From NCBI GenBank assembly GCA_949738935.1, contig CATJCJ010000568.1:1-53043 (forward strand): a DNA stretch of 53,043 nt, in the 5' to 3' direction. Below are positions 7,134 through 28,859 of this stretch, in pieces (the stretch's first letter is position 1; every line of letters starts with the position of its first letter). The position numbers and the translations under genes were made by a program. The notes beneath the pieces are model-generated. The model did no database searches. It saw only the letters and a list, made by a program, of their open reading frames with translations, and was not told the origin of the DNA. The DNA comes from an uncultured Eubacteriales bacterium. Its GTDB lineage: Bacteria; Bacillota; Clostridia; Lachnospirales; CAG-274.

Positions 7134-8375
7134 GTGAAGTACTTGATCTTAGGAGCAGGACCTGCCGGGTTATCTTTTGCATATCGATTATTCCAAATGG
7201 GTGAAATGGATTTTTTAATCTTAGAAAAAGAAAATGAGGCTGGAGGATTGTGTAGGAGTAAGGAGATTGATAATGGCCCCTTGGATGTGGGGGGAGGGCA
7301 TTTTATTGATGTAAAAGATCAAGAAGTACTTGAATTTTTGTTTGATGTAATGCCAAGAGAAGAGTGGAATTTATATAATCGTAATTCTCAAATATCAATA
7401 CATGGTCAATTTATTAATAGTCCTATTGAGGCAAATATTTGGCAGCTTTCCATAGAAAAACAAATAGAGTATTTAAAAGAAATTGCAATTGCCGGGTGTA
7501 ATTTGGGTGTACCAAAACCAGATAAATTTATAGAGTGGATTTATTGGAAATTAGGGAAAAAAATAGCTGAGGACTATATGGTTCCTTACAATCAAAAAAT
7601 ATTTTCAGAGAATTTGAATAGTTTAGGAACATATTGGCTTGAAAAACTACCAAATGTTTCATTTGAAGAAACATTAAGAAGCTGTTTAGAGAAAAAGGCA
7701 TACGGAACCCAACCGGGACATGCACAATTTTTATATCCTAAAAAATATGGAAGTGGAGAAGTATGGCGGCGGATAGCAGATAGGATATCTGGTCATATTA
7801 ATTATAATACGATAGTGAAGCATTTAGATATTCAAAAACATAGTGTAAATGGAGAATATGTAGCAGAAAAAATAATTTGTACGATTCCATGGAAAGAATT
7901 TAGGGAAATAAAGGGAATTAAATCAGAGTATTTAAATATGATTGAGAATTTAAAGTATAGTTCAGTGGTTGTAGAGTATAATCCAGAATGTTTATGTTCG
8001 AAAGCACATTGGATTTATTTTCCGGATTTAAATATACATTATCACAGAATTTTAAACCGAAGAGTATTTAGTAAAGGTAAAGGTTTTTGGACAGAAACAA
8101 ATTTAAACAGGTATAAATATAGGAGCGATAAAAGAAGCTTTTTTAATAAGTATGCTTATCCATTGAATACTATTGATAAACCAATGATTATGAAAAAACT
8201 TTTAGATAAAATGGAGGAAAATAATATCATGGGATTGGGAAGATGGGGTGAATGGCAACATTATAATTCAGATGTAGTTGTTCATCGTGCAATTAATTTG
8301 GCAGATAAATGTGTGAGGGGGGGGGTAATACGATATAACTTTGCTGCTCCTGTAGAAATTGGGGTATGTGCGTGA
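7134..8375 (+). CDS. FAD-dependent amine-oxidase-like protein with a G9 tract near its C-terminus
   Basis: A 413-residue FAD protein of the protoporphyrinogen oxidase/UDP-galactopyranose mutase-like group. The dinucleotide fold ILGAGPAGLSFAYRL (residues 4-18), then EKENEAGGLCRS and DVGGGHFID, are classical. It starts at GTG, preceded by AGAGGAA. Such proteins are common in polysaccharide loci but few have a known reaction; ring contraction or oxidation of a sugar nucleotide is possible. A run of nine Gs at 8317-8325 encodes part of VRGGV, 18 residues from the end. The frame is open at this length and the stop overlaps the next start (TGATG). One G fewer would put TAA right after the tract, and one more would end translation four codons later. 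Confidence 0.75.
   Translation: MKYLILGAGPAGLSFAYRLFQMGEMDFLILEKENEAGGLCRSKEIDNGPLDVGGGHFIDVKDQEVLEFLFDVMPREEWNLYNRNSQISIHGQFINSPIEANIWQLSIEKQIEYLKEIAIAGCNLGVPKPDKFIEWIYWKLGKKIAEDYMVPYNQKIFSENLNSLGTYWLEKLPNVSFEETLRSCLEKKAYGTQPGHAQFLYPKKYGSGEVWRRIADRISGHINYNTIVKHLDIQKHSVNGEYVAEKIICTIPWKEFREIKGIKSEYLNMIENLKYSSVVVEYNPECLCSKAHWIYFPDLNIHYHRILNRRVFSKGKGFWTETNLNRYKYRSDKRSFFNKYAYPLNTIDKPMIMKKLLDKMEENNIMGLGRWGEWQHYNSDVVVHRAINLADKCVRGGVIRYNFAAPVEIGVCA
8317..8325 (+). repeat. Poly-G tract, 9 G (tract A)
   Basis: Nine consecutive Gs in a reading frame of an AT-rich gene. The current length keeps the FAD protein open to its TGATG joint with the next glycosyltransferase. Lengths of 8 or 10 would stop translation within four codons and separate the stop from the downstream start by roughly 30-50 bases. 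Confidence 0.8.
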
Positions 8376-14259: not shown

Positions 14260-15144
14260 GATATTAATTTGGGGGGGGGGCAGTGGGGACGAAAAATTTA
14301 TTACCCATTGATTATGCATGCTGAGGCAGAACCAATCGCTTACATTGATATTAATAGCGTTAATATGGGGGAAACAATATATGGAAAGAAATTAATTTTG
14401 CCTAATCAAATATTTGAGTATGAGTTTGACAATGTTGTAATAGCAGTAGCTTCTTCAATATTGCAAAAAGAGATACTTTTAACATTAAAAGAATTAGGAA
14501 TTTCAGAAGACAAGATAATTAATATTGCCACGGATTGTGAATTTATGGATCTGTTTTCTGATCAAAGGACAAATTTTATTGAAGGATTTGCAAAATGGTT
14601 ACATGATAATAATTTGGCAAATGGAAGCGTGGCGGAATGTGGAGTAAGTAAGGGAGATTGCGCAAGATTTATAAATAGAAGCTTTCCAGAACATAAATGC
14701 TATTTGTTTGATACATTTGATGGGTTTAATAAGAAAGATCTAGATATAGAAGATTCTTTGAAAAATCCTTTGTGGAAACGCAGTCGTTTTGATTCTGAAG
14801 GTAGTATTAAAACTTATAGAAATATTGATATAAGTTATGTTCTTTCCAGAATGCCATTTAAGGATAAAATTATTGTTAGAAAAGGTTTTTTCCCAGATAC
14901 AGTAGAGGGGATAAAAGATGAATTTTGTTTTGTTAATTTAGACATGGATTTATACCAACCTATGTTAGAAGGACTGAGATTTTTTTATGATCGAGTTATA
15001 AAAGGTGGTGGTATACTGCTACATGATTATTACAATATGGATTTGGGAGTTAGGAAGGCAATTGAAGATTTTGAAACAGAGAGGGGAATAATATTAAAAA
15101 AAATACCTATAGGAGATAAGTGTAGTATATTTATTTTGAAGTAA
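14243..15144 (+). CDS. Phase-variable Rossmann-TylF methyltransferase, frameshifted (OFF) at a G10 tract
   Basis: The natural start is GTG at 14243, 8 bases after AGGGAGGA and inside the end of the neuB-like gene. From there the protein reads LNKILIW and enters a run of ten Gs. With ten, translation stops at TGA 14309 after 22 residues. With eleven (or eight) it would continue as WGGGQWGRKIYYP, completing the glycine loop of the recurring Rossmann domain, then through a TylF-like methyltransferase (AECGVSKGDCARF, FVNLDMDLYQPMLEG, GGILLHDYYNMDLG) to 15144. The open part from 14269 is intact, with no other lesion. It is therefore a single 300-residue gene switched off by one G. Internal initiation at TTG 14269 is possible but would destroy the nucleotide-binding strand. 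Confidence 0.75.
14271..14280 (+). repeat. Poly-G tract, 10 G (tract B)
   Basis: Ten Gs inside the glycine-rich loop of a Rossmann fold. The current length is out of frame. Eleven or eight Gs join GTG 14243 to the methyltransferase frame. Confidence 0.85.
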
Positions 15145-20579: not shown

Positions 20580-21721
20580 ATGAAGAATAAGGTATATATT
20601 TTTGGCGCAGGGGAGAATGGCAAAGAGTTGGCGGCTCAACTGAATGTAAATGGAAAGGTAGAAATTGTTGCATATATTGATAACGATAAAAATAAGTGGG
20701 GGGAAAAATGGGGGGGGTAGAAATTATTAGTATAGATGAAGCTGTTTTAAGGGGAGCTCAAAATTGTGCAGTATTAGTATCGGTAGCTCAGAACAATCAG
20801 ATAGTGGAACAGCTAAAAGAGAAAAAGTTTGAAAAGATATTTTTACTTGACAACTGGTTAAGGAAACGAAGATATTTCAGGCCAATTGTAATGGTTGAAT
20901 CTGACTATAAAGATGCTTGCCCATTTAATCATTATACTTCACCATATCCAGATATAATAGAGATACATAAAAAGGAGAATGAGATATTTAACAAAGATAA
21001 AGAAATCTTGGACATTGATTTTAATATATGCAGACAGTTGGAATTAATAAAAAAGATGGAAGAATTTGAGTTGCCCGACTGGTCAGCGAGTAAAGGAAAA
21101 AATTTAGAATACAGATACAATTATGATAATAATTGGTTTTGTGAGAATAGTGCGAAAGCACTTTATTATATGGCTAGGATTTTAACCCCCAAAACTATTA
21201 TTGAAGTGGGCTCAGGATATTCGACAGCGGCGATGTTGGATATCAATGAAAAATATTTCTCAAATAAAATTAAGATAATTTCTATTGAACCTAATGCAGA
21301 ACGTTTGAAAAGCTTATTGCGACCTACAGATAATATAAAAATATATGAAAAGCCTTTACAGGAGATTGAAGTAAGTCTTTTTGAAGCATTAAATGAAAAC
21401 GATATATTATTTATTGACTCTTCCCATATATCAAAGATTGATTCGGATGTCAATTATATATTTTTTGAAATTTTACCCAGATTAAAAAATGGAGTTTATA
21501 TTCATTTTCATGATATATTTTATCCATTTATGTATTATAAAGAGTGGATTTATAAGGGATTAGCATATAATGAGATGTATATTTTAAGGGCATTTTTAAT
21601 GAACAATAAGCAATATTCGATACAATTATTTGGCGAAATGTTATCTTTAAAATATAAAGATCTAATCCCGAAAACGCTATTGGAATGTGGAAACGGAAGT
21701 TTATGGATAAAAAAAAATTAG
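20580..21721 (+). CDS. Phase-variable Rossmann-methyltransferase fusion, frameshifted (OFF) at a G8 tract
   Basis: Translation from ATG 20580 gives YIFGAGENGKELA, YIDNDKNKWGEKWGG and then TAG at 20718, a 46-residue product. The tract of eight Gs at 20710-20717 immediately precedes that stop. With nine Gs the frame becomes KWGGVEIISIDEAVL, which continues the Rossmann domain as in its relatives (KWGEELYGVPI in the 35-kb protein). It then runs into a class I methyltransferase-like domain (TIIEVGSGYSTAAML, ISIEPNAER, ILFIDSSHI, HFHDIFYP; the Methyltransf_24 type) to 21721, about 380 residues in all. A second, six-G run at 20698-20703 is close by. No other lesion was seen. RBS AAGGGAG precedes the ATG at a longish spacing. 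Confidence 0.75.
20710..20717 (+). repeat. Poly-G tract, 8 G (tract C)
   Basis: Eight Gs directly followed by TAG. Nine (or six) would open the methyltransferase frame. A companion run of six Gs lies seven bases upstream. Confidence 0.8.
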
Positions 21722-21778: not shown

Positions 21779-23023
21779 ATGCATATTTTATTTGTTACAT
21801 ATGAATTTGTAACTGAAAAAGGATTATGTGGAGGGTTAGCGCACTATTTAGCGAATATTTCTGAAATTATGGCAGCTCATGGTCATAAGATTACAATATT
21901 AGTAATGAATAATCATAATGATATCAAAGAATGGAAAAAAAACATTACGGTTGTATCTTTTGTGTATAATCATATTGAAAATGGGAAAAAATTAGGAGCT
22001 TACATTGAATATTTTACTAAAGTTAATATTTCAGAATGGTTAAATAAAAGTACTGCTATAAATCAGAAAATAAGAGAAATAGATAAAAAAGAAAAAATAG
22101 ATATTGTTCAATATTGTGGTGATAATATGTCTGTTTGGTATCGAATTAAAAATATTCCTAGTGTAGTACGTTTGTCTAGCTTTGGACCATGGTTAAAGCA
22201 CGCTTGTTTGCCAGATTCTAACATGAATAGTATGCAATGGCTAAATAGCTGGGAAAGCAGGCTACTTCTTTATTCTTTTTTAAAGGCAGATGCAGTATAT
22301 AGCCCAAGCACATGTGTTGCTCAGATTGTTAATTCTAAATTATGCAAAAAGATTGATGTTATTGAATCGCCTTGTGTTATTGATGAAAGTACAGTATATA
22401 TAATGGATCATACAAATAAGCTGTATCAACAAAAATATTTACTTTTTTTTGGTTCATTAAGTATTTTAAAGGGGATAAATGTTATTAGAGATTCTATACA
22501 TGCTATTTTAAAAAAGTATCCACAAGTATTATTTGTTTTTGCCGGACATGAGGTAAATAAAGGGGTAGTGCAAAAAATAATGGATAGAGCAGGCAAATAT
22601 AGGGAGAGAGTGATATATTTAGGGGAAATAAGGGAGCCCAATGAGCTATATATGATCATAAAAAATGCCTATGCTTGCGTGTTACCTTCACGGGCTGATA
22701 ATTTGCCAAATACTTGTATTGAGGCTATGGGATTGGGGAAAATAGTAATAGGAACGTATGGAGCCAGTTTTGAACAATTGATAAAAAATAAGGAAAGTGG
22801 TTTATTAATAAAAAGAGATTCTCCTAAAGCACTAATAAAAGCAGTTGACTATTTAATGGGTATGACAGAGGGGGAATGGAGCGAAATGGGTAAAAAAGCA
22901 AAAGAAAGTGTTGTACGGATGAGCCCAGATAAAATTTATGAGCAATTAATTTTGTTTTATAAAAAAGTAATTAACCAAAAAAACTTTAAGAAAGGAAGAA
23001 ATAAGGATGAAAAAAATAAGTAG
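21779..23023 (+). CDS. GT4 glycosyltransferase (paralogue of the gene at 27620)
   Basis: A 414-residue GT-B enzyme. The N-terminus HILFVTYEFVTEKGLCGGL holds the acceptor loop. The donor-binding end reads VLPSRADNLPNTCIEAMGLG, then VIGTYGASFEQLI. The same sentences recur with small changes in the poly-G gene at 27620-28859, showing a duplication, but this copy lacks the G tract (NNHNDIKEW at that point). It may therefore be the constant member of the pair. RBS TAGGAG. Its 3' end overlaps the next start by 17 bases. Confidence 0.85.
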   Translation: MHILFVTYEFVTEKGLCGGLAHYLANISEIMAAHGHKITILVMNNHNDIKEWKKNITVVSFVYNHIENGKKLGAYIEYFTKVNISEWLNKSTAINQKIREIDKKEKIDIVQYCGDNMSVWYRIKNIPSVVRLSSFGPWLKHACLPDSNMNSMQWLNSWESRLLLYSFLKADAVYSPSTCVAQIVNSKLCKKIDVIESPCVIDESTVYIMDHTNKLYQQKYLLFFGSLSILKGINVIRDSIHAILKKYPQVLFVFAGHEVNKGVVQKIMDRAGKYRERVIYLGEIREPNELYMIIKNAYACVLPSRADNLPNTCIEAMGLGKIVIGTYGASFEQLIKNKESGLLIKRDSPKALIKAVDYLMGMTEGEWSEMGKKAKESVVRMSPDKIYEQLILFYKKVINQKNFKKGRNKDEKNK

Positions 23024-23495
23024 TTTATTAATTACCATAGCAGGTGTTATAACAGGTGGGGTAGCAGGTTTTCTAGCATCTTCCAAATTTTCTAATAAGA
23101 TAATTGAAAAAAAGGATGCCAGAATAGATAAATTTGTTGGTTATTTTAATTTATTAGAGCAATGGATGAGTATAAAGGAGGAAGGAAAAGCAATAGCATC
23201 TTATTTTGAAAAAAATGGTTATTATAAAATTGGTTTATATGGGTTAGGAAAGATAGCAAACCATTTATTAAAAGAACTGGATGGTACTGATATTCAAATT
23301 TTATTTGCAATTGATGCTAGAGGGGAGCGGTTAAATTCAGATATTGTAGTGTATACACCGGATGATGAAATTCCAAAAGCAGACGTGATAGTGGTAACTG
23401 CAACGTTTGATTATGATAATATTAAGAAGACATTAGAGGAAAAAACAGATACACAAGTAATTTCAATGGATGATGTTATTTATGACTTATTATAA
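23007..23495 (+). CDS. Membrane-anchored stand-alone Rossmann-type domain protein
   Basis: A 162-residue protein with one N-terminal membrane segment (about residues 5-26: SLLITIAGVITGGVAGFLAS), a short helical linker and the recurring Rossmann domain alone (IGLYGLGKIANHLLKEL, ILFAIDARGERLNS, VIVVTATFDYDNIKKTL). It has no catalytic partner domain. It could be a scaffold or sensor that brings the many enzymes bearing the same domain to the membrane; this is inference. Its ATG overlaps the preceding gene, and the next gene overlaps its end, so it is firmly in the operon. Confidence 0.7.
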   Translation: MKKISSLLITIAGVITGGVAGFLASSKFSNKIIEKKDARIDKFVGYFNLLEQWMSIKEEGKAIASYFEKNGYYKIGLYGLGKIANHLLKELDGTDIQILFAIDARGERLNSDIVVYTPDDEIPKADVIVVTATFDYDNIKKTLEEKTDTQVISMDDVIYDLL

Positions 23496-24615
23496 ATCAG
23501 ATATTTTAATATCAAATAAAAACCAATCAAGGGAGAACGCTATACAGTATAAGAAATATAATCAAATATGGCTGTCATGTTTCTTAATGGGGCTATTTTT
23601 GATTATGCTGATAGTGGTTTATTTGGATCCTTGTTTCCATTATCATTCTCCACTAAAAAAAATCAGCTATCTTTTAAATGACGAAAGATATCAAAATAAC
23701 GGGATTGTCCGAAATTTTGAATATAATGCACTTATAACAGGAACAAGTATGACGGAGAATTTTAAAACTTCAGAGATGGATGATGTTTTCCAAGTAAATT
23801 CTATTAAAGTGGCTTTTGCAGGAGGTTCTAATAAAGAAATCAATGATAACCTTATGGTTGCTTTAGAGAATAATTCAGATATTCAAATGGTATTGAGGTG
23901 TTTGGACATAGGGAGTATTCTGGAAGATAAAGACGCTCCTTTTCACGGAATAGCAGATCAGGGATATAACTATCCATATTTTATGAATGATAGTAATTTA
24001 TTTAATGATGTATTTTATGTTCTAAATAAAGATATGCTGATTAAAGGACTAGACAACATTCGTTATACGAGGCGGGGGGGGGTAAAAACATCATTCGATG
24101 AATACTGTTATTGGAATGATTATTACCAATTTGGTGCTGATGCAATATTGGAATTATATCAACGTGGAGAGAGAACAGAAATTATTAGAGAACTGACTAC
24201 AGAAGAGAGAAGAGTAATATTAGGCAACATTAATCAAAATATGATGGCTGCACCGCAAAATTATCCCAATGTAGATTTTTACTTTTTTTACTCGCCATAT
24301 AGTATTGTATGGTGGGATAATATAAAAAATTGTGGAATGGTTGATTTTTATATTGAGATAATGGAAATGCTTGCAAAAGAATCTTTTAAGTATGATAATA
24401 TAAAATTATTTGATTTTTGTAGTAATTATGAGATGGTATGCAATTTAAATAATTACAAAGATTATGTACATTATAGTGCAGAAATAAATTCTAAAATATT
24501 AGATTGGATGGAGGAAGAAAAATACCTCGTAACGGAAGGTAACTATAAAAGGCATTTTGGAGAATTAAGGCAATTTTATCAGAATTATAATTATGATAAG
24601 ATTTTCGATAATTAG
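23470..24615 (+). CDS. SGNH-like acyl-transfer partner of the MBOAT protein, with an in-frame G9 tract (ON)
   Basis: A 381-residue protein with one membrane segment (about residues 33-53) and an outer domain resembling DltD/AlgJ-type SGNH proteins: ALITGTSMTENF (serine motif) and DYVHYSAEIN near the C-terminus (Asp-x-x-His). Such proteins finish O-acylation of extracellular glycans after an MBOAT channel protein, which is the next gene. A run of nine Gs at 24074-24082 encodes RGGVK about halfway. The frame is open. One G fewer gives TAA at once, one more gives a stop about six codons later. ATG 23470 and ATG 23482 are both possible starts; neither has a strong ribosome binding site. Confidence 0.7.
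   Translation: MMLFMTYYKSDILISNKNQSRENAIQYKKYNQIWLSCFLMGLFLIMLIVVYLDPCFHYHSPLKKISYLLNDERYQNNGIVRNFEYNALITGTSMTENFKTSEMDDVFQVNSIKVAFAGGSNKEINDNLMVALENNSDIQMVLRCLDIGSILEDKDAPFHGIADQGYNYPYFMNDSNLFNDVFYVLNKDMLIKGLDNIRYTRRGGVKTSFDEYCYWNDYYQFGADAILELYQRGERTEIIRELTTEERRVILGNINQNMMAAPQNYPNVDFYFFYSPYSIVWWDNIKNCGMVDFYIEIMEMLAKESFKYDNIKLFDFCSNYEMVCNLNNYKDYVHYSAEINSKILDWMEEEKYLVTEGNYKRHFGELRQFYQNYNYDKIFDN
24074..24082 (+). repeat. Poly-G tract, 9 G (tract D)
   Basis: Nine Gs in the middle of the SGNH-like gene. In frame now. Lengths of 8 or 10 would remove the C-terminal half, including the DxxH end motif, and probably abolish acylation. Confidence 0.8.
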
Positions 24616-24638: not shown

Positions 24639-26087
24639 ATGTTATATAATTCGTACATTTTTTGTTTTTTATTTTTGCCGATTGTATTATGTGCATATTA
24701 TCTTTTAAATAAATATGAAAAATATAATTTGAGTTTAGCTTTATTATTTTTTGCTTCGATTATATTTTACTCTTATGATAATATAAGGTATGTTGTTCTT
24801 TTGATGGGGAGCATTATTATAAACTGGTTTATAAGTTGTTTATTGAGCCAAAGTAGAAATATATTTTATTTGATTATAGGTATAGGTATTAATATTGCAA
24901 TTATTTTTCACTTTAAATATTTCAATTTTTTTATAGATAATTTAAATAAACTATTTCAATTTGAGTTTAGTTTTCGGAAGATTTTATTACCTTTAGGAAT
25001 AAGTTTTATTACTTTCCAGCAAATATCCTATATTGTAGATTCTTATAGAGGAGAGACTAAAGAATATAGTTTTTTAGAATATGCAGCGTTTATTTCATTT
25101 TTCCCACAGTTAATAGCCGGACCGATTGTTTTACATAAAGAGATTATTCCTCAATTTAAAGATTATAGGAAAAAATTATTTTGTCATGAGAGTTTTGCCA
25201 AAGGTGTTTATTTCTTTAGTATAGGGTTATTTAAAAAGGTAATTATTGCCGATACCCTTAACAAAGCAGTAGCATGGGGATGGGGTAATTTTGAACAGAT
25301 AACTTCACTTGAAATTATTATTATTATGCTATCATATACATTTCAGATTTATTTTGATTTCAGCGGTTATTCAGAGATGGCATTAGGAATAGGAAAAATG
25401 TTTAATTTTGATATTCCTATGAATTTTGATTGCCCATACAAATCTTGTTCTATTATAGAATTTTGGAAGAAATGGCATATCACATTAACAAGATTTCTAA
25501 GGGAATATGTCTACTTTCCATTGGGAGGAAGCTTAAAAGGAAAAGTATGGACATGCTTAAATGTTATGATAGTTTTCTTTTTAAGTGGCTTGTGGCATGG
25601 CGCTAATTGGACATTTGTGTTATGGGGAGTTATGCATGGAATTGCACAAATATTTAATAGATTTTTTGACGTAAAGTGGGAAAAATGTAATCAGGTTTTT
25701 CGATGGCTGGTTACATTTTCTTTTATTAATATAATGTGGTTGTTTTTTAGAGCAGACAGTATAGGGCAAGCTTGGGAATTATTAATCCGGGTTATAAAAA
25801 TGGAAACATTAACTATATCAGAAGATTTATATAAGTGTTTTGTATTGCCAGAGATAAAATGGTTAGTGGGATGTGTTACACCAATGGAAAAACTTATAGA
25901 AAAAATAAATGGATTTTACATGTGGGTTACATTATTGATGGTATTTGGAATATGTTTGAATGAAACAAATATAAAAGAAAAGAAGTTTTATCCAAATATA
26001 CTTACAGCTATAAAGTGCAGCTGGTTGTTAATATGGAGTATTATTTCTTTTTCAGGAGTATCTGTATTTTTATATTTCAATTTTTGA
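24639..26087 (+). CDS. MBOAT O-acyltransferase (AlgI/PatA/DltB family)
   Basis: A 482-residue polytopic membrane protein with about ten hydrophobic segments. The family core is clear: LLPLGISFITFQQISYIVDS, FFPQLIAGPI, FDFSGYSEMALG, FWKKWHITLTRFLREYVYFP and the catalytic histidine in LSGLWHGANWTFVLWG. It passes acyl groups across the membrane to a surface glycan, together with the SGNH-like protein encoded just upstream. RBS TTTGGAGG gives a firm start. Acetyl is the commonest group moved by this family in glycan loci, but the group cannot be read from sequence. Confidence 0.9.
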   Translation: MLYNSYIFCFLFLPIVLCAYYLLNKYEKYNLSLALLFFASIIFYSYDNIRYVVLLMGSIIINWFISCLLSQSRNIFYLIIGIGINIAIIFHFKYFNFFIDNLNKLFQFEFSFRKILLPLGISFITFQQISYIVDSYRGETKEYSFLEYAAFISFFPQLIAGPIVLHKEIIPQFKDYRKKLFCHESFAKGVYFFSIGLFKKVIIADTLNKAVAWGWGNFEQITSLEIIIIMLSYTFQIYFDFSGYSEMALGIGKMFNFDIPMNFDCPYKSCSIIEFWKKWHITLTRFLREYVYFPLGGSLKGKVWTCLNVMIVFFLSGLWHGANWTFVLWGVMHGIAQIFNRFFDVKWEKCNQVFRWLVTFSFINIMWLFFRADSIGQAWELLIRVIKMETLTISEDLYKCFVLPEIKWLVGCVTPMEKLIEKINGFYMWVTLLMVFGICLNETNIKEKKFYPNILTAIKCSWLLIWSIISFSGVSVFLYFNF

Positions 26088-26097
26088 AGAGAGAAGG

Positions 26098-26463
26098 ATG
26101 GACATAATGAGAAAAATATTTTTGCTATTTTTCATATTTAATATATTTTTTTGTTTGGGGGGATGCGGTAAGTATAAAAAGATAGATATTGTTTTAGATA
26201 TGTTAGGGCATAAAGACTATATTATTCAGGAAAACTTGGGTAGAGCTGATATGCTATATGATTTTGCTAATTACTGTTATCAGAAAGTGGGGTATGGAGG
26301 ACATAATATAAAGTTTGATTATTTCATGGGGAGGGCTTTAGAGGACAATATTATATCTGATAATGAGTTTTGCGAAGCAATAGATATATTAGTAGATACA
26401 GAAAAGTACATTGCTAGTTTTGATGTGAAAGAATATATACAAACCGGTATTGACTATCAATAA
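26098..26463 (+). CDS. Lipoprotein N-terminal part of a transglutaminase-like protein (possibly frameshifted)
   Basis: A 121-residue reading frame with a lipoprotein signal peptide: positively charged start, hydrophobic core (IFLLFFIFNIFF) and lipobox LGGC, which would anchor it outside the cell. The mature part (LYDFANYCYQKVGYGG and a run of acidic helices) shows no known domain. It stops at TAA 26461. The next frame opens just before and carries a transglutaminase-like domain without any signal peptide, so the two are probably one 490-residue secreted protein interrupted by a one-base shift between 26429 and 26463. No long G tract is present at the junction. Confidence 0.6.
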   Translation: MDIMRKIFLLFFIFNIFFCLGGCGKYKKIDIVLDMLGHKDYIIQENLGRADMLYDFANYCYQKVGYGGHNIKFDYFMGRALEDNIISDNEFCEAIDILVDTEKYIASFDVKEYIQTGIDYQ

Positions 26464-27571
26464 TGAAATTTTTATAGTTAGCCTTGCAGAAGAAGAAGGT
26501 GATGCATATAATATAGATGTTATAGAATCATTATTTGAAAAGTATAAAAATGTAGATAGGAAACGGGCACTTGCATGTATTTTTTATAAAATCATTGGGG
26601 AGGAAACAGATAATACGAAAAGGCATGAAAAGGTGTTGGGTTTTTTGGCAAAGGGTATTTTACATAATCCCAAGAGGCAGCCGTTAAGTAGAGATGGGAA
26701 TATGATGTTTGATCCAATTGTTTTGCTTGAGCTACAAGATATGAGGTGTGGCAATACAAATAGAATAGGTTGTGATTTGTTTTCCAGCGTAGGATATGAA
26801 ACCAGAATAGTCCAATTGTATCATCATCAGATAGGCGAAATATATTATGATGGACAGTGGCATTATTTTGATGCGGATACAATTTTGAATAGTAATGATA
26901 TAGTTAAAATAAATGGAATTATACCTTCTATAAATGAATTGTCTAGTCAACCATATTTAATTGATAAAGTGAATTTCTGCTTTGATGAAATTATTTATAA
27001 TACGAAATCGGGATGGGAAGGGCAATGGATTTATCCATCTTATGTTTTTGCTGATACTACGGGAGATGTTCCTGTCTATTATTATAAAGACGCTACAGAT
27101 ATGGAATCGTTAAACGATTTTTACGGATGGAATTATTATGATACTATCTATAATAATGGATTAAATGTACTGGATAGTTATTTTTGCCAACCAGGAATAC
27201 CATATATAAATGCAGTATCTGTAAAGGATAACATATGCCATATAGAATATACAGTTGAAGATTTTGATAATTATCTTATGGGATATACAATATATGTAAG
27301 TAACAAAAGTAGAGAATGGGAATATCTTTATCAATATTGTTCCAATGATGTAAAAAAATATATTATAAATCAGTATACTCCGGAACAATATGATAATATA
27401 AACAAATTACCGCCCTCAGAAGTTTTATTAGATTCTACTGTTAGTAATTGCTATGATTTATATTTATCAAGCGGTACATATTATATCTCTGTAATGGGAT
27501 ATGACCAGCATGGGATTGACATAGGTAAGCACTGGTATAAACCCTCAAATGAATTAGCAATAGCAATATAG
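26450..27571 (+). CDS. Transglutaminase-like domain protein (C-terminal part)
   Basis: A frame of up to 373 residues, opened by TTG 26450 without a good ribosome binding site. The central part shows a transglutaminase/protease-like core: MRCGNTNRIGCDLFSSVGYE (catalytic-type Cys), then HHQIGEIYYDGQWHYFDADT with His and Asp in the expected order. The rest, from about residue 190, is probably beta-rich and lacks a recognisable domain. No signal peptide is present in this frame, which fits its being the continuation of the lipoprotein at 26098. In glycan loci such domains are found on surface proteins; the target is unknown. Confidence 0.6.
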   Translation: MTINNEIFIVSLAEEEGDAYNIDVIESLFEKYKNVDRKRALACIFYKIIGEETDNTKRHEKVLGFLAKGILHNPKRQPLSRDGNMMFDPIVLLELQDMRCGNTNRIGCDLFSSVGYETRIVQLYHHQIGEIYYDGQWHYFDADTILNSNDIVKINGIIPSINELSSQPYLIDKVNFCFDEIIYNTKSGWEGQWIYPSYVFADTTGDVPVYYYKDATDMESLNDFYGWNYYDTIYNNGLNVLDSYFCQPGIPYINAVSVKDNICHIEYTVEDFDNYLMGYTIYVSNKSREWEYLYQYCSNDVKKYIINQYTPEQYDNINKLPPSEVLLDSTVSNCYDLYLSSGTYYISVMGYDQHGIDIGKHWYKPSNELAIAI

Positions 27572-27619: not shown

Positions 27620-28859
27620 ATGCATATAGTATATATAACAGTTGAATTTGTATCAGAAAGAAAACCATGCGGAGGATTGGGACATTATTTAGCTAATATA
27701 GCAACAATAATGGCAGAGAGAGGACATCAGGTTACAATATTAGTTCAGACTGATCATGGGGGGGGGGTATTTTTGGAAACCCAATGTAGAAGTCATTACG
27801 TACACGATAAAAGATTTTGAACTGGCAAGTGTCTTGGAAAAGATAACAAGAAAATTTATTTTAAAAGATAATTTATATTTTTTATATACTGGAAGTATAA
27901 CTACTAGAGAAGTTCTCAAAAGACTAGATAAAAAAAAGAAGATAGATATAGTGCAATATTGCGGAAATGATTTGTCAATACTATTTAGACATAAAAAAAT
28001 TCCAAGCGTTGTCAGATTATCTTCTTTTACTCCACAGTATGAAGAAGCAATTAGAGCAGATTATGATCCTGAAAATGAAAAATGGATTGAGGAAAAATAT
28101 AGCAAGCTTTTTTATATTGCTTATCATAGGGCAGATGCAATATTTGGACCGAGCAAAGTAGTGGCTGATATTATCAAAAAAAATACAAAATTAAAAGTGA
28201 AAATCATAGAATCTCCATGTATAATAGAAAAAAATAAATTTATAGAATTAAAGATGGATAAATTAATAAATAAAAAATATCTTTTGTTTTTTGGAACTTT
28301 AAATCGGCTGAAAGGAGTTGAAGTAATTAGAGATAGTATATACAAAATACTCAGTATACACAAAGATATTTTATTTGTATTGGCAGGTCGTCAAGAAAAT
28401 TCCAAAACTGTAATGGGAATTTTAGAAGCAGCTGCAGAATATAAGGACAGGGTAATTTATTTAGGTGAAATTAAAAATTCAGATAGCTTATATGGCATAA
28501 TAAAAAATGCATATGCTTGCATATTACCGTCATTAATAGATAATTTGCCCAATACCTGTATTGAGGCAATGGGAAATGAAAAGATAGTAATAGGTACATA
28601 TGGAGCAAGCTTTGAGCAACTGATAAAACATAAAAAAAGTGGATTGTTAATTAAACGAAATTCTCCATCTGCGTTAATAATGGCTGTTAATTATTTGATG
28701 AATATGTCAGACGAGCAAAGATATGAAATGGAAAAGAAAGCCGGTAAACGGGTAGAACGAATGAACCCGGAGAGTATATATAATCAGCTTATTACTTTCT
28801 ATCAGGATATTATAAATAAAAAAGCTAAAAAGAATTTGAATAGAGGCGAAAGGAGATAA
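27620..28859 (+). CDS. Phase-variable GT4 glycosyltransferase, frameshifted (OFF) at a G10 tract
   Basis: ATG 27620, with AGGAAGG upstream, opens HIVYITVEFVSERKPCGGL, close to the paralogue at 21779. The frame meets ten Gs at 27758-27767 and then ends at 27820 after 66 residues. With nine Gs it reads TDHGGGYFWKPNVEV and continues in the frame that runs to 28859, giving an intact GT-B enzyme of about 413 residues with NLPNTCIEAMG and VIGTYGASFEQLI. No other defect is visible. A start at ATG 27756 would lack the N-terminal nucleotide-fold strand and is not credible as a full enzyme. Confidence 0.8.
27758..27767 (+). repeat. Poly-G tract, 10 G (tract E)
   Basis: Ten Gs in the first domain of a glycosyltransferase. 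Nine (or twelve) restore the reading frame. The paralogue at 21779 lacks the tract at the equivalent place. Confidence 0.85.

Follow-up and report, generated by a model that had tools for sequence, protein, structure and literature searches.

A run of nine G residues lies inside an open gene of an uncultured Eubacteriales bacterium, next to a gene for a membrane-bound O-acyltransferase (MBOAT). The window, i.e., the whole stretch of DNA that was analyzed, is 53,043 nucleotides long. The question raised by this locus is whether the run, called tract D, is a stable stretch of glycine codons or a phase-variation (contingency) tract that sets glycan O-acylation ON or OFF. The second reading is considered probable. 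The evidence comes from the reading frame of the gene, the predicted fold of its product, the MBOAT neighbor, and the G runs found elsewhere in the window and in related loci.

Tract D and the SGNH gene

The first-pass annotation placed nine Gs halfway along a gene for an SGNH-like partner of an MBOAT protein. The run is found at exactly that place, in codons 202-204, and starts in codon 202 of 381 (53% along the ORF). The features of the gene are as follows.

23470 to 24615, plus strand: SGNH-fold partner of the MBOAT protein, probably membrane-anchored, 381 aa, currently ON (AlphaFold2 pLDDT 93; DltD, PatB, and PAF-AH fold matches; family alignment)
23740 to 23748, plus strand: predicted catalytic block I, G91-T-S93 (G91 and S93 invariant in 59 sequences)
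24074 to 24082, plus strand: tract D, a G9 run coding Gly-Gly, followed by TA
24460 to 24471, plus strand: predicted catalytic D331-Y-V-H334 (DxxH), lost at OFF tract lengths (D331 and H334 invariant in 59 sequences)

ORF 23470-24615 is open in the assembly and reads through at nine Gs, as had been stated. At eight Gs, the translation ends ...RRGG and is followed by TAA, a stop at codon 205. At ten Gs, it ends ...RRGGGKNIIR with a stop at codon 211, six codons on. Translation of the frames bears out the predicted immediate stop after loss of one G and the nearby stop after gain of one. The tract sits between the predicted catalytic Ser and D331/H334, and both frameshifts remove the DxxH, also as proposed. 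Across tract lengths of 5 to 13, the gene is ON at 6, 9, and 12 Gs and OFF at all others. Tract D has the makings of a contingency locus: an over-long G run in a coding frame with ON/OFF frame logic.

The length of tract D is one assembled value from a bin of 885 contigs with 8.6% contamination. No length variants were seen in the collections searched, from which near-identical copies of the gene are absent (the closest has ~51% identity). Among homologous loci, the tract is not kept in the closest relatives of the SGNH gene. No homologue of the SGNH protein was found in 36 further genomes from the family that the window is assigned to, and alleles at tract D therefore could not be compared there.

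Searches of Pfam, NCBIfam, and PDB sequences returned no family for the SGNH protein, so its identification required structure. The AlphaFold2 model has a pLDDT of 93 and a pTM of 0.88, and one of its strands ends at the GTS motif. The top Foldseek match is DltD, and VIA-align gives Z scores of 11-12.6 to PAF-AH, PatB, DltD, and related SGNH enzymes. In an alignment of 59 family members, G91, S93, N97, D331, and H334 are invariant. The fold, the invariant Ser and DxxH, and the adjacent MBOAT gene all agree with an SGNH-like partner of an MBOAT protein. The N-terminal helix probably serves as a membrane anchor. Gly203-Gly204, encoded by tract D, are in a coil of the model and in a gap-rich segment of the alignment; extra glycines should therefore do little harm.

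Relatives of the SGNH gene were found in 431 stretches, many from Lachnospiraceae and related Clostridia, and the best 80 of the 431 were kept. The closest named relatives belong to Lachnospiraceae and allied MAGs. No relative was found on viral contigs, and the sole plasmid match was to the MBOAT, over 153 bases, in a Vibrio plasmid.

The MBOAT partner and its locus

The gene downstream of the SGNH gene encodes the MBOAT protein.

24639 to 26087, plus strand: MBOAT O-acyltransferase of 482 aa; the gene has a GGAGG ribosome site of its own (PF03062, E 6e-30)
26067 to 26084, plus strand: C-terminal FLYFNF, an FxYxxF acyl-shuttle motif

Of 86 loci with a homologue of the SGNH gene, 81 have an MBOAT gene next to it in the same orientation. 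The FxYxxF motif forms the C-terminal end in 82 of 84 homologous MBOATs. In PatA, the acyl group is carried on the Tyr of this motif before it moves to PatB, the SGNH partner (PMC12148441). Published MBOAT-SGNH chemistry requires the two proteins, in line with the earlier claim that both are normally needed (PMC12148441). The window MBOAT has its own GGAGG site and could thus probably be translated even if the SGNH gene were OFF. Cultured commensals, e.g., Butyrivibrio hungatei DSM 14810, have homologues of both genes without tracts.

Neighboring genes encode a CDP-glycerol glycerophosphotransferase-like protein, NeuB, nucleotidyl transferases, glycosyltransferases, and an ABC exporter. This gene set suggests that the product of the locus is a polysaccharide that is exported and has teichoic-like features. 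The window proteins scanned include no Dlt carrier or ligase, and the MBOAT scores 157 bits against the DltB model, far under the 375-bit cut-off. ORF 26450-27571, which has no Pfam match, was considered as a second SGNH partner and rejected, as no GxS/DxxH arrangement is visible by eye. Between it and the MBOAT gene, at 26098-26463, is a small lipoprotein-like ORF with a weak Imm70 match (E 0.011).

The assembly encodes two further MBOAT-SGNH pairs, one of them intact and anchored in the host genus. The second MBOAT is on contig C394 (L036:7121-10187) and is followed by an ALGX-domain partner with a G11 run near its start (L036:8669-8679). At G11, the candidate upstream starts of this partner are out of frame with its body, although an internal restart may be used. 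The third pair, on contig C234, has no tract, and a neighboring gene is 74-85% identical to the host genus. Against its own assembly, the window SGNH protein has no homologue beyond a 56-residue match at E 0.06, and the second intact SGNH partner thus belongs to another SGNH subfamily. The proposal that one tract could control all acylation by the window pair is reasonable, but with two other pairs in the assembly, the whole cell need not become acyl-free. The window contig itself has no anchor to the host genus among the comparisons made (tetranucleotide correlation 0.49). Because the closest named SGNH relatives come from Lachnospiraceae and allied MAGs, the window may have arrived by horizontal transfer or have been misbinned.

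G runs in the window and related loci

The window contains five runs of eight or more Gs (G8+), all on the coding strand, where Markov models expect 0.18-0.38. Synonymous-codon shuffles give an expectation of 0.44 G8+ runs for the 32 listed ORFs together and of 0.02 for the SGNH gene. Counts of G runs drop ~0.22-fold per added G up to length 5, with no further drop beyond. The G9 at tract D is more than chance. The other four tracts, and a paralogue used to phase one of them, are listed below.

8317 to 8325, plus strand: tract A, G9, in frame, ~20 codons before the end of an amine-oxidase/NAD-binding ORF (7134-8375)
14271 to 14280, plus strand: tract B, a G10 run within the Rossmann motif of a gene for a TylF-type methyltransferase; the upstream frame stops after the tract, OFF
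20710 to 20717, plus strand: tract C, G8 separating the N-terminal domain of a Methyltransf_24 gene from its remainder; the upstream frame hits TAG, OFF
21779 to 23023, plus strand: intact glycosyltransferase paralogue, from which tract E was phased
27758 to 27767, plus strand: tract E, a G10 run in the second glycosyltransferase gene, OFF

The paralogue at 21779-23023 aligns to the tract E gene in frame 1 up to 27757 and in frame 2 from 27774.

Related loci in other genomes also have tracts. In L082 and L126, the break in the MBOAT gene coincides exactly with a G8 tract; in L132, one MBOAT gene is broken near a G8 tract and a second has an in-frame G9. The SGNH gene of L091 has an in-frame G8. 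In the broken genes, the sequences on either side of the break can still be aligned well with intact relatives. The MBOATs of L104 and L118 are broken without any tract. The MBOAT break of L064 was rejected as a tract effect, the break not being at its tract. The MBOAT and SGNH genes of homologous loci contain six G8+ runs in 224 kb; the other ORFs have three in 596 kb (P 0.017). This pooled excess is due to the MBOAT genes, the SGNH genes alone having one run against 1.05 expected from codon shuffles.

A natural length variant is found in loci L099 and L100, which are 99.59% identical over 9 kb and differ by 35 mismatches and a single indel. The indel is on the minus strand and is a G7 (L099:4731-4737) in one locus and a G9 (L100:4760-4768) in the other. 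The G7 form is split into 305 and 377 aa, and the G9 form encodes a 668 aa membrane protein. The variable gene adjoins, and is convergent to, an MBOAT-SGNH pair of the same SGNH family.

Switching at tract D is favored by the G8+ excess, the three OFF tracts of the window, the broken MBOATs, the out-of-frame ALGX-domain partner on C394, and the L099/L100 variant. Points against it are the absence of length variants of tract D from the collections searched, the absence of the tract from the closest relatives, the lack of G8+ enrichment in SGNH genes taken alone, and the errors that homopolymer lengths in metagenome assemblies can contain. If tract D were instead a stable stretch of Gly codons in a flexible loop, the gene would always be ON. 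The frame is indeed open, the loop should tolerate Gly, and within Lachnospiraceae solute-binding proteins and various other genes have G9 runs too, some of which may encode linkers. This reading is unlikely, as only ~0.02 such runs are expected in the SGNH gene, and GGG is not the preferred Gly codon of the window (134 of 667 Gly codons). It also has to contend with three sister tracts of the same locus that are OFF and with a length variant in a related locus.

Apparent ON and OFF states could also arise from assembly or polymerase errors in homopolymers, or from normal gene decay. The bin (885 contigs, 8.6% contamination) and the two MBOATs broken without a tract speak for this explanation. 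Yet an error in length cannot create the runs themselves, the halves of broken genes align well to intact relatives, and L099 and L100 agree over 9 kb save for 35 mismatches and the tract; the explanation is judged very unlikely. RNA polymerase or ribosome slippage at the tract would give a mix of full-length and truncated protein in every cell, with no switching. Homopolymers are slippery in principle, but known slippery sites are mostly A or T runs, and the L099/L100 variant points to change at the DNA level. Slippage is thus given very little credence.

In the proposed phase-variation switch, slipped-strand mispairing at the G run would alter the length of tract D. Lengths of 6, 9, and 12 Gs would give the full SGNH protein, and other lengths a stub of ~203-211 residues. 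The stub would keep the membrane helix and Ser93 but lose Asp331 and His334, leaving the active site half complete. In ON cells, the MBOAT would acylate the Tyr of its C-terminal FLYFNF, and Ser93 of the SGNH protein would accept the acyl group and transfer it to the exported polysaccharide of the locus. In OFF cells, the MBOAT could still be made and acyl transfer would stop. We infer the enzyme activity of the SGNH and MBOAT proteins, the acyl-CoA donor, and the acceptor glycan. Such a switch would explain the coexistence of acylated and bare surface glycan in one gut Clostridia clone, and mixed acylation would plausibly matter for phage adsorption, binding by IgA, and neighbors that produce esterases.

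Known systems and G9 tracts in Lachnospiraceae

The best-known examples of poly-G phase variation come from Campylobacter, Helicobacter, and Neisseria. In Haemophilus influenzae, the repeat of oafA is not known to be a G run. oafA likewise gives ON/OFF O-acetylation of a surface glycan (PMC9558356), but it encodes an AT3 enzyme acting on lipooligosaccharide, whereas the window encodes an MBOAT-SGNH pair. Neisseria pglI is a phase-variable O-acetyltransferase of the pilin glycan with a G tract of 9-15 in its coding region (PMC5953494, PMC9558356). It resembles the window gene in having a coding-region G tract in a glycan O-acetyltransferase with an SGNH domain. However, pglI is a single AT3-SGNH fusion of a Gram-negative organism, and here a separate SGNH protein and an MBOAT are encoded in a clostridial, multi-tract polysaccharide locus. 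In cgtB-type contingency genes of Campylobacter jejuni, a poly-G of 8-9 Gs frameshifts a surface-glycan gene ON or OFF, as proposed here (PMC6437147). C. jejuni belongs to another phylum and the enzyme class is different; population heterogeneity is shown there and is predicted here.

PatA-PatB, AlgI-AlgX/AlgJ, and DltB-DltX-DltD share with the window pair an MBOAT and an SGNH partner, the FxYxxF shuttle, and a DltD-like fold (PMC12148441). Unlike in these systems, no model in Pfam or NCBIfam matches the window SGNH family. The literature searched contained no description of phase variation in these three systems. Nor did it describe poly-G switching of an MBOAT-SGNH pair, or in Clostridia, with few subscription papers covered. 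Poly-G switching of a glycan O-acetyltransferase is known from pglI, and its probable occurrence in an MBOAT-SGNH pair and in Clostridia would be new. The analysis yields named, testable loci for poly-G switching of two-protein O-acyltransferases.

G9 runs are present in 45 of 60 Lachnospiraceae genomes. In the first sample, Acyl_transf_3 is the commonest Pfam family among ORFs of at least 100 aa with a G9 run (6 of 56), against a background of 220 genes of this family in the 60 genomes, ~0.15% of coding DNA. In the second sample, it accounts for 2 of 56 tract ORFs, and solute-binding and leucine-rich-repeat proteins are the commonest. Acyl_transf_3 is over-represented among G9-tract genes in both samples, to a smaller extent in the second, and tract genes are mixed; the significance value assumes independent, evenly drawn ORFs, and neither is true. 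The G9 runs in solute-binding and leucine-rich-repeat proteins may be glycine linkers or further switches. The chances are about even that glycan O-acylation is a recurrent target of poly-G tracts in Lachnospirales, with separate origins in MBOATs, two kinds of SGNH partner, and AT3 and with the same output, surface acylation ON or OFF.

Two genomes, G150 (L287-L304) and G121 (L305-L314), contain 12-23 exact G9 runs each. Of 203 G8+ runs, 45% are directly followed by the dinucleotide TA (0.42-0.48 across three samples), versus 6% of runs of 4-5 Gs. Examples are found at 8326, 20718, 24083, and 27768 of the window and in loci L036-L054, L142-L168, L172-L226, and L258-L346. The third base after the TA of G8+ runs is free, so the TA is not simply a stop codon.
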